DNA of 64,000 nucleotides, taken from NCBI GenBank assembly GCA_003021085.1, contig PXRE01000001.1, forward strand, positions 62,001 to 126,000, written 5' to 3'. Source of the stretch: Halobacteriales archaeon QS_1_68_20. Lineage in GTDB: Archaea; Halobacteriota; Halobacteria; Halobacteriales; PXRE01. The first letter of the stretch is position 1; the number at the start of each line of letters is the position of its first letter. The notes beneath the pieces are model-generated. The model was not told the origin of the DNA, did no database searches, and saw only the letters and a program-made list of their open reading frames with translations. The translations under genes and the position numbers were made by a program. This document shows positions 17,982 through 32,831 of the stretch, piece by piece.

Positions 17982-18081
17982 CGAGCGGAGCTACGGCGTG
18001 GCGGTACTTCAACGCCGGGAAGCGCCGCCGGACGTGGCAGCTACACGACTCCTTTTGTACGAAGGCACTCAACACCGTCGT

Positions 18082-19311
18082 ATGAAGACGATCAAGGACA
18101 GCGTCCACGACCACATCAGGGTTGAGGGCGTCGCCGCGGACCTGCTGGACACCCCACCGGTCCAGCGACTCCGCCACGTCAAGCAACTGGGGACCGCATC
18201 GCTCGTCTACCCGTCCGCGAACCACACCCGGTTCGAACACAGTCTCGGGGTCTACTACCTCGCCTGCGAGGCGCTGGACCACCTCGGCATCGCCGGCCCG
18301 AAGGCCGAACGCGTCAAGGCGGCCGCGCTGTTGCACGACGTCGGCCACGCTCCGTTCAGCCACAACGTCGAGGACCTCATCTACCGCCGGACTGGCAAGT
18401 ACCACGACGACGTGGAGGACCTGCTCACCGGTGGACGCGTCGGCGAGGTCCTCCGGTCGCACGACCTGGACCCGGATCGCGTGGCCGACATCGTCGCCGG
18501 GGAGGGCGAACTCGGCCAGCTCGTCTCGGGGAAACTGGACGTCGACCGGATGGACTACCTCGTCCGTGACGCCCACCACACCGGCGTTCCCTACGGGACC
18601 ATCGACACGGAGCGCCTCGTCCGCGAACTGCGGTTGATGGACGGCGAACTCGTGCTGGACGAGGGCAACGTCCAGACGGCCGAGAGTCTGCTGGTCGCTC
18701 GCGCGCTGATGAACCCGACCGTCTACAGCCACCACGTCGCCCGGATCAGCAAGACGATGCTCCGGCGGGCCACCGAGCGGTTGCTCGGGGCGACGGACCT
18801 GGACGCCGGGACGCTCCGGCGGATGGACGACCACGAACTGATCGTCGCGCTCCGGGACTGCGAGGAGACGGCCGACGCCGCGCGGCGGTTGTTCAGCCGC
18901 GACCTGCTGAAGCGAGCCGTCTGGGCGGAGATGGAAGACGTCCCCGAGGACGTAGTCGACGCCGACCACGGCGCCGTCCGCGGGTTCGAGCGCGAAATCG
19001 CCGAGGAGGCCGGCGTCGAACGGGACGGCGTCCTGGTGGACGTGCCTGCCCGTCCGAGCATGACCGAGAGCACCTCGCGGGTGCTGGTTAACGGGGAGAT
19101 TCGACACCTGGGGCGCCAGTCGCCGCTGGTGCAGGCGCTCCGGACCGCCCAGCGCAACCAGTGGCGCCTGGGCGTGTACGCGCCCGAGGAGTTGACGGAC
19201 CAGGTCGGCCGCGCCGCCGCGGACGTGCTGGACGTCGACCCCGACGGCGGCCTGATCAGCGACACCCGGCCGGGCGTGGCCGCGACCCTGGACGAGTTCG
19301 CCGAGGACTGA
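18082..19311 (+). CDS. HD-domain phosphohydrolase, paralogue 2
   Basis: [51 protein letters not shown]; co-linear with 15582-16790. Confidence 0.92.
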   Translation: MKTIKDSVHDHIRVEGVAADLLDTPPVQRLRHVKQLGTASLVYPSANHTRFEHSLGVYYLACEALDHLGIAGPKAERVKAAALLHDVGHAPFSHNVEDLIYRRTGKYHDDVEDLLTGGRVGEVLRSHDLDPDRVADIVAGEGELGQLVSGKLDVDRMDYLVRDAHHTGVPYGTIDTERLVRELRLMDGELVLDEGNVQTAESLLVARALMNPTVYSHHVARISKTMLRRATERLLGATDLDAGTLRRMDDHELIVALRDCEETADAARRLFSRDLLKRAVWAEMEDVPEDVVDADHGAVRGFEREIAEEAGVERDGVLVDVPARPSMTESTSRVLVNGEIRHLGRQSPLVQALRTAQRNQWRLGVYAPEELTDQVGRAAADVLDVDPDGGLISDTRPGVAATLDEFAED

Positions 19312-19343: not shown

Positions 19344-19373
19344 TATATGAATATATGTGCATATATTCATATA
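19344..19373. repeat. 30-nt AT-rich palindrome (14-bp arms, 2-nt centre)
   Basis: tatatgaatatatg-tg-catatattcatata; arms are perfect reverse complements. Confidence 0.95.
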
Positions 19374-19465
19374 TGCCCTCACAGCCGGCGGTGGCGCGTG
19401 CTGGCGCGGCCTCCGTGCCGCGCCACAGGCGCGCGAGAAACGAGTAACGGAACGGAGCGAGTAAC

Positions 19466-19583
19466 GCAGTCGGTTTGGGGGAGTGGCCATCCCTAGGCCA
19501 AGTGGTCGCTAGCGTTCACGGTTCGGACGGAGTCGACGCTAGCGACCACTGGACCTGGGGGTCAACCTCACACCTCCCCAGCC
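19466..19583 (+). other. Structured intergenic element, copy 1 (candidate ncRNA or hairpin repeat)
   Basis: Perfect 15-bp stem agtggtcgctagcgt (19501-19515) / acgctagcgaccact (19536-19550), extended by ccctaggcc / ggacctgggg; homologous to 32370-32489. Confidence 0.7.
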
Positions 19584-19774
19584 TCCTCGTTCGGCCGGGG
19601 TTCGCGGCCTCGCGGTGCTCGGCACGCTCACCCGGACGCTCAACTCGTCCCTCGCGCGCGTTGCTCGCGCGCGCCACGAGGACTTTCGGTACGTGATACG
19701 CACTCCGGGACCACTGTCACCACGATCAACCGCAAATCGAACCACTAAACCGGCGACCCACGGAACACTCGACC

Positions 19775-20803
19775 ATGACCGTCGAGGTAGCGGGGACTAT
19801 CCTCCGGGGTCGGGAGTTCGATCCCGTGGAGGGCCGCGTCGTGGTGGAGGATGGTGAAATCACGGCAATCGAGGAGGAGTCAGTCGAGAGCGACCGGATC
19901 GTACTTCCGGCGTTCGTCAACGCCCACACCCACATCGGGGACTCCATCGCCAAGGAGGCCGGGGCCGGCCTGCGGCTGGAGGAACTGGTCGCGCCGCCGG
20001 ACGGCCTCAAGCACCGCCTCCTCCGGCAGGCCGACCGCGAGGACCTCGTCGCCGGGATGGCCCGCTCGCTGCGGTTCATGCGCGAGACGGGCACAGGTGC
20101 CTTCATCGAGTTCCGAGAGGGCGGCGTCGAGGGCGTCGAGATCATCGAGGACGCGCTGGAGGGCGTCGATATCGAGGGCGTGATCCTCGGCCGCGAGACA
20201 GTCGACGCCATGAAAATCGCGGACGGGTTCGGCGCCAGCGGCGCCAACGACGCCGACTTCGCCGCCGAGCGCGAGGCAACGAGGGATGCCGGAAAGCTGT
20301 TCGGCATCCACGCGGGCGAGGTGGACGACTCGGACGTCGAACCCGCGATGGACCTCGATCCTGACTTCCTCGTCCACATGGTCCACGCGACGGAGGGGCA
20401 CCTCGACCGCGTGGAGCGCGAGGAGGTCCCGGTCGTCGTCTGCCCGCGGTCGAACCTGGTCACGGACGTCGGGTTCCCGCCAATCGAGGAGTTGGCCGAG
20501 CGCACGACCGTCGCGCTGGGCACGGACAACGTGTTCCTGAACAGCCCGTCGATGTTCCGCGAACTGGAGTTCGCGGCGAAACTGACGGACTTGGGGGACC
20601 GCGAACTGCTCCGGATGGCCACGGTCGCGGGGGCCGACATCGCGGGGCTGAACTGCGGCGTGATCGAGCCCGGCCGCGACGGTCGGTTGCTCGTGCTGGA
20701 CGGCGATTCTCACAACCTGACCGGGACCCAGGACGTCGTGCGGTCGGTCGTGCAACGAGCTGGAGTCTCAGATGTGGTGGGGATGATAAGCTACAACGAT
20801 TGA
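19775..20803 (+). CDS. Amidohydrolase family metal-dependent hydrolase
   Basis: LPAFVNAHTHIGDSIAKE, FGIHAGE, VVVCPRSNLVTDVGFPPIEELAERTTVALGTDN. Confidence 0.9.
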   Translation: MTVEVAGTILRGREFDPVEGRVVVEDGEITAIEEESVESDRIVLPAFVNAHTHIGDSIAKEAGAGLRLEELVAPPDGLKHRLLRQADREDLVAGMARSLRFMRETGTGAFIEFREGGVEGVEIIEDALEGVDIEGVILGRETVDAMKIADGFGASGANDADFAAEREATRDAGKLFGIHAGEVDDSDVEPAMDLDPDFLVHMVHATEGHLDRVEREEVPVVVCPRSNLVTDVGFPPIEELAERTTVALGTDNVFLNSPSMFRELEFAAKLTDLGDRELLRMATVAGADIAGLNCGVIEPGRDGRLLVLDGDSHNLTGTQDVVRSVVQRAGVSDVVGMISYND

Positions 20804-32188: not shown

Positions 32189-32369
32189 CTACAGTGGTAT
32201 TTCGTATGCGAGCGGCAAAAGCGGTGGGACGACGGAGTGAAACCGGTCTCGTGAACGCGTCTCGTTGGCCGGTGCATCTTTCCACCGGGGCGCGCGGGTG
32301 AGCGTGTCGCCGCAGGCGGCCACGAACCAAATGCGCGCGATGGACGAGGAGCGCAGCGAAGTGAGCACC

Positions 32370-32489
32370 GCAGTCGGCTGGGGAGGGCGTGGACATCCCT
32401 AGGTTAAGTGGTCGCTCGTGTTCACGGTCCGATCAAGATCAACGCTAGCTCCCACTGGACCTAGGGGTCAACCTCACACCTCCCCAACC
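32370..32489 (+). other. Structured intergenic element, copy 2
   Basis: Shares catccctagg...aagtggtcgct...ttcacggt...cactggacct.ggggtcaacctcacacctcccca with 19466-19583; ccctagg/cctaggg helix. Confidence 0.7.
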
Positions 32490-32831
32490 GGTGGGGGCGG
32501 ACCGGCGACCGACCGCCGGGATCGCCGGCCCAGCCCCTGGCCACCGGGAGAGCAAACGCTCCCGAGCTCCCGCTCACGTCCGTTCGCGGTCACCTCGCGC
32601 GCGCCGTGCTCGCGCGGGCTGGGAGCCTCGGTCAGGATCACAGCACGCTCATACTTCGTTCTCGCTGTCGCTTGACGAACCAGCCGAGAAGAACGCTCGA
32701 CCGCCCGACCATAACTCTAGTTTCCAAAGTATATTTTTTAGATTCCGAAGATAGTGGCGGCGCCGCTCGGCGGATACGGCGGCAACCTGTACGAAACAGA
32801 ACTCACAGAAAAATCGAAATAAGAACCACTC

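Follow-up and report, generated by a model that had tools for sequence, protein, structure and literature searches.

An intergenic haloarchaeal hairpin and the dispersed family of modular palindromic repeats to which it very probably belongs

A long hairpin lies in a gap between two genes in the 64-kb window (the whole stretch of DNA analysed here, 64,000 nucleotides), and the question it raises is whether it is a structured noncoding RNA, a dispersed repeat or a miniature element, three options that the first-pass annotation had left side by side. We find that it is very probably one complete member of a palindromic repeat family that is GC-rich, modular and dispersed over haloarchaeal intergenic regions. 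The dispersed repeat is thus the option that stands, with about 40 copies of the core and at least 76 loci in the genome that carries the window (hereafter the host genome) and with relatives in other genera.

The hairpin and the compound element around it

The gap holding copy 1 measures 463 nt between its flanking genes (Table 1), in agreement with the ORF-free stretch of ~450 nt noted at first sight. The two 15-nt arms at 19501-19515 and 19536-19550 are perfectly complementary, and the 15-bp stem described there is present at exactly these coordinates. A second copy reported at 32370-32489 was likewise confirmed and its core is 82% identical to that of copy 1. None of 200 dinucleotide shuffles folded as well as either core (0/200 in both cases; z scores in Table 1), and the quality of the core fold is about equal on both strands.

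The 118-nt core is the middle of a larger compound element of roughly 290 nt (about 19390-19675), in which GC-rich hairpins are nested and the outer ends are inverted. In the predicted fold, the whole of copy 1 forms one branched hairpin (z -5.31) in which the 5' outer arm is paired with the 3' end, and strong folds are predicted for elements on both strands. A full element starts with an arm such as GGCGCGCGCGAGCAACGCGCGCGAGG, followed by the 5' module, GCAGTCGG and the core; the core itself runs from GCAGTCGG through a GGYTGGGGAGG arm, the inner stem and a variable loop to the 3' arm. After the core come one or more GC-rich hairpins and then CCTCGCGCGCGTTGCTCGCGCGCGCC, the inverse of the start. 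The 5' outer arm (19390-19437 in copy 1) recurs upstream of most full copies, and the 3' outer hairpin CCTCGCGCGCGTTGCTCGCGCGCGCC has 61 matches in the host genome at up to three mismatches; as a control, the reversed sequence gave 0. In a blast of the genomic elements against the window, copies 1 and 2 are the only elements found, and the copy 2 region is covered from 32286 to 32636.

Table 1. Features of the two element copies and of the gap that holds copy 1
Feature	Position in window	Strand	Basis or remark
HD-domain gene	17998-19311		flanks gap of copy 1
28-bp AT-rich palindrome ATATGAATATATGTGCATATATTCATAT, frequent flank of the GC-rich element	19345-19372		motif scan
5' outer arm and side hairpin, pairs with 3' outer arm	19390-19437	+	repeat and fold
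5' module aaacgagtaacggaacggagcgagtaac	19438-19465	+	common to many full copies
Core hairpin, copy 1	19466-19583	+	about 40 genomic copies; fold z -5.73
Inner stem, 5' arm AGTGGTCGCTAGCGT	19501-19515	+	sequence
Inner stem, 3' arm, reverse complement of AGTGGTCGCTAGCGT	19536-19550	+	sequence
18-nt family signature CCTCACRCCTCCCCARCC, here CCTCACACCTCCCCAGCC	19566-19583	+	42 exact copies in host genome
Variable 3' hairpin module hp2	19584-19649	+	palindromic; sequence differs between copies
3' outer hairpin CCTCGCGCGCGTTGCTCGCGCGCGCC, inverse of 5' end of other copies	19650-19675	+	
Amidohydrolase gene	19775-20803		flanks gap of copy 1
Copy 2, 5' outer arm and 5' modules	32286-32369	+	blast with genomic elements
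Copy 2, core hairpin	32370-32489	+	82% identical to copy 1; fold z -5.23
Copy 2, 18-nt signature CCTCACACCTCCCCAACC	32472-32489	+	
Copy 2, 3' hairpin modules and outer arm	32490-32636	+	

The elements consist of nested hairpins strung together by short constant linkers, of which the 18-mer CCTCACRCCTCCCCARCC is the most constant. The first-pass annotation had pointed to conserved unpaired strings, and this holds for the 18-mer, which is the hallmark of the family. In Halorubrum, the elements begin with CCAAAGCCCCAGCCGCGAGG-hairpin-CCTCGCGGCTGCCCCTTTGAGTCCCRCCC, a spacer and the 18-mer CCTCACRCCTCCCCARCC, continue with TCG-hairpin-CGACTCCCTCGCGCG and close with a last hairpin ending in GGCRCGCGCC; they have no GGYTGGGGAGG partner arm. 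The 5' arm is also missing from half copies in the host genome (L018, L019, L022, L023, L033, L037, L039 and L041). Since the 5' partner arm is missing in both, the 18-mer is independent of pairing.

Some loci depart from this plan. In L014, L030 and L034 the 3' side resembles an inverted 5' half, which makes them nearly symmetrical palindromes, and the half copy in L022 may adjoin an apparent tRNA gene on the opposite strand. The 28-bp AT-rich palindrome next to copy 1 occurs once in the window at up to five mismatches. Palindromes of this kind (TATATGAANATATGTGCATATNTTCATATA, at 19345-19372 and in L001, L003, L018, L020, L024, L039, L067, L079 and L097) are found 46-361 nt from element motifs, sometimes joined to them by CCCTCACAGCC. 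Among host-genome loci, which had been pre-chosen around elements, 17 of the 19 AT-rich palindromes are no more than 365 nt away from such a motif. The palindrome is possibly another module or a regulator site.

Copy number, distribution and gene context

The annotation as a two-copy element was wrong. When the host genome (3.39 Mb in 40 contigs, 81.5% complete) was searched with blastn, about 40 core copies of 118-122 nt with a variable loop were found, 72-85% alike. Three merged searches place the compound element at at least 76 loci, a lower bound for which part of the candidates was scored, with copy counts that rest on searches. The 118-nt core had no blastn match in 39 relatives of the same order, a set that held no genome of the same family, and an exact 20-mer scan of genome contigs with the inner sequence from the host genome also gave no match. 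The outer ends are common to other genera, and in other genomes the family is detectable only through the outer hairpin and the 18-mer.

The 18-mer CCTCACRCCTCCCCARCC occurs 42 times in the host genome, 8-176 times per genome in 19 of 19 sampled genomes of genus g5 (inferred to be Halorubrum), in most genomes of genus g17 (inferred to be Halorussus) and occasionally elsewhere. Of 295 haloarchaeal genomes from 88 genera, 48 genomes in 12 genera contain it; as a negative control, the reversed 18-mer had zero matches in the same 295 genomes. The genus names were taken from named contigs with the 18-mer, which are mostly Halorubrum, the others being Halorussus, Halobellus, Haloparvum and Halosimplex. 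A phylum-wide sample contained no 18-mer outside the order, nor did the sampled non-haloarchaea. Off the chromosome the 18-mer is rare (two plasmid records and four viral contig records). The family is an occupant of many intergenic regions in Halorubrum and its relatives. On contig C1 of genome G032, the density of the 18-mer in the first 1.44 Mb is about twice that of the remainder, with no strand bias in that part (36 on the plus and 36 on the minus strand). Side-hairpin-like sequences were also seen in haloarchaea as short, regularly spaced tandem arrays (G100:C1:286069-286296 and G222:C12:78916-79067).

For the gene context, genes were predicted by a simple caller that trains itself. All 42 host-genome 18-mers fall outside the called genes, and in the named genomes 8 of 131 lie inside one, mostly near its predicted start. 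Relative to co-directional genes, 20 elements are sense and 26 antisense, a balanced orientation, and some elements sit between divergent genes. Convergent gaps hold 42 of the 102 classified elements in the named genomes, compared to 123 of 575 gene gaps overall; this excess is absent in the host genome.

Pairing, turnover and a constant 18-mer

A structured noncoding RNA or 3'-UTR element would keep its helices by compensatory changes. The first-pass annotation had seen such a change between copies 1 and 2, where a T-G pair in the outer helix becomes T-A, and had concluded that pairing is kept while sequence changes. The substitution is real, but it belongs to no covariation pattern. We aligned 26 full core copies and tested pairing on a structure written by hand: 89.1% of paired cells could pair compared to 89.0% after shuffling, 7 pairs had changed on both sides compared to 8.0, and the covariation score was 0.132 compared to 0.135. 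The RNAalifold covariation term was -0.03. At the Y-R pair 9/124, the counts of CG (10), UG (7), CA (6) and UA (3) fit the expectation for independent columns, and the two types of inner arm, GTGGTCGC and GCATGCCGC, are commonly found in mismatched combinations. The arms of the core therefore vary independently. The core copies pair as a legacy of a palindromic ancestor, with arms that have varied separately since.

Without covariation in the core arms, the case for a structured RNA loses its main support. At the gathering score, Rfam had 0 matches in the window and the related loci, and at a relaxed E-value it returned only chance microRNA-like hairpins in the gap. In addition, the elements occur in both orientations to the neighbouring genes, also between divergent ones, and both strands fold about equally well. 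The strength of the predicted folds on both strands and the hairpin adjoining the 18-mer, which keeps its pairing while its sequence differs between copies (see below), speak for an RNA; set against the independent arms of 26 copies and the lack of an Rfam match, they leave this explanation highly improbable. The case also carries a caution: when the copies are paralogous and few, two complementary arms can look like RNA covariation.

In the hairpin next to the 18-mer, arms from the same copy match at 8.03 of 10 positions in Halorubrum, compared to 6.82 between copies, and at 7.32 of 10 in the host genome, compared to 6.69; in each of the two sets, 0 of 2000 permutations reached the complementarity found within copies. 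At orthologous Halorubrum sites, the hairpins next to the 18-mer have been replaced by unrelated hairpins. Replacement with pairing retained is statistically clear.

Species have diverged while the elements themselves stayed in place. Of the five elements in a 20-kb region of G032, four have counterparts of like orientation in related genomes, and the fifth sits in 480 nt of inserted intergenic DNA, at a point where four relatives carry 17-46 nt. Upstream of a valS-like gene, several g5 genomes carry an element with differing hairpins after the 18-mer and others have none: G313 has a short spacer without the element, and G306 and G310 have gaps of 8-10 nt compared to about 295 nt in G032. The presence/absence pairs yielded no clean target-site duplication and no exact element boundary; no duplication can be defined because the spacer DNA differs between the members of these pairs as well. 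Among the 119 named loci, no clean empty site was found, and several candidate pairs were traced to gene gain or to turnover of intergenic DNA. An apparently exact empty site in L201, at a divergent-promoter site, was rejected, as the whole intergenic spacer is shorter there.

These results also bear on a classical MITE, that is, a deletion derivative of a haloarchaeal IS moved by the IS transposase with target duplication. Inverted outer ends, a high copy number and an intergenic, transposase-free make-up fit such an element. Between the paired outer ends listed in the host genome there are a few hundred nt, which leaves too little room for a transposase gene. Against a MITE, no target duplication was detected, no transposase gene flanked by element ends was seen, and the variable nested modules are unlike a uniform MITE. 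We regard a MITE origin as very unlikely.

While hairpins and flanks diverge, the 18-mer is retained. At three cleanly aligning orthologous sites it is 92.6-100% identical and the flanks are 37-76% identical, with most differences in the 18-mer at R positions; at site D the alignment was misregistered and the 18-mer identity was left out. G032 has 117 exact 18-mers and 11 with one mismatch, in element regions that are about 80-90% alike. Most of the covered orthologous sites with element remains contain the 18-mer, although the orthologous elements were found through the 18-mer, which favours intact ones; remnants without it occur at one site (L198, L208 and L218). The simplest reading of these alignments would be selection in place. 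Such retention suggests a selection that a purely selfish repeat does not need.

On this ground, the 18-mer might be a domesticated feature, namely a chromosomal address site for a putative sequence-specific DNA- or RNA-binding protein that would be conserved in Halorubrum, Halorussus and the lineage of the window. The protein would be a nucleoid, chromosome-organising or regulatory one, the 40-180 intergenic 18-mers per genome would be under selection, and the surrounding hairpins, continually replaced, would be accessory structure or marks of the spread of the 18-mer. The intact 18-mers amid diverging surroundings, the ratio of exact to one-mismatch copies in G032, the presence in every sampled g5 genome, the convergent-gene excess in the named genomes and the rarity on plasmids and viruses all argue for this. 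However, the 18-mer is patchy over the haloarchaea (12 of 88 genera), the element is missing or deleted at some orthologous sites, its strands are balanced in the first 1.44 Mb of G032, and the host genome has no convergent excess. We consider an address site doubtful.

Known repeat systems and a putative mode of spread

In 5.39 million open papers (subscription journals lie outside this coverage), none of six sequence strings of the family occurred, and topic searches of the open literature returned no description of this repeat element. Two papers on haloarchaeal structured RNAs (PMC7002113 and PMC2864571) contain no relevant motif. The family is not previously described in the literature searched, and its kind, palindromic intergenic repeats, is already known.

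Bacterial REP, REPIN and BIME sequences are chromosomal extragenic palindromes with tens to hundreds of copies and a constant short linker beside the hairpin; REPs occur in single and inverted double forms, carry a GTAG/GGAG tetranucleotide and are associated with RAYT, a Y1 HuH transposase. The present family shares the high copy number, the extragenic and chromosomal location, the constant linker beside a hairpin and the occurrence of single and inverted double forms. Its elements differ from REPs in being several times longer and in lacking a detected RAYT (Y1) gene in the host genome, where a search for the Y1 transposase (PF01797) in the 81.5% complete assembly gave no match. The GTAG/GGAG tetranucleotide was not seen at the hairpin base, and the constant linker is CCTCACRCCTCCCCARCC.

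The SMRs of Haloquadratum walsbyi are about 110 bp long, have tens of copies and no coding capacity, and show strong inverted ends not recognised as transposon ends, with no target duplication seen; they are nearly uniform, often >95% identical, and insert into PATE/IS605 palindromes (PMC3119063). Compared by description, the present family is like them in its inverted ends, its tens of non-coding copies and its insertion into other palindromes. It differs in that its copies are 72-85% alike and modular, and in that the 18-mer is common to several genera. PATEs, also haloarchaeal, are transposase-free palindromes with heterogeneous copies, without inverted ends and tied to IS605-type transposons (PMC3119063). 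The present family resembles them in all but the last two points: its full copies have inverted outer ends and its genome has no detected Y1 transposase. Together with mitochondrial GC clusters, SMRs and REP/REPINs are the closest systems, and none is matched in all defining features.

Overall, the family is probably best explained as REP/SMR-like non-autonomous palindromic repeats with the 18-mer as a candidate recognition site of a protein. About its mechanism of spread we are evenly divided. Like the REPs of bacteria, the SMRs of Haloquadratum or the GC clusters of mitochondria, the family would be non-autonomous palindromic DNA that spreads by way of an intermediate (a hairpin or a single strand) or by recombination at its constant linkers. 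Against the repeat explanation stand the lack of a clean target-site duplication and of an exact boundary, in presence/absence pairs that differ in neighbouring intergenic DNA too, the absence of a Y1 match in the incomplete host genome and of any transposase among the elements seen, and the retention of the 18-mer at orthologous sites. A sequence-specific protein might bind the 18-mer, and we propose that the 18-mer alone resists decay because this putative protein recognises it, which makes the 18-mer a concrete target for finding the protein behind the family. The evolution of the family is unusual in that a single short sequence stays fixed while the hairpins next to it are exchanged between orthologous sites, and in that palindromes insert into other palindromes.

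In yeast mitochondria, the intergenic DNA contains GC clusters and double-hairpin elements, GC-rich palindromes that become inserted within each other. The double-hairpin modules around CTGNCAG, separate units found inside the present elements in 15 cases, are formally alike; the organisms are unrelated and the likeness would be one of analogy only. One module insertion is visible at site A, where L346 can be compared with L340 and L344. A double-hairpin module, CGAGG..CCTC-TGGCAG-CCGGC..GCCGG-CG, recurs inside Halorubrum elements (L339, L343, L345, L236, L254, L268 and others) and appears to be a separate family of nested palindromic insertions.
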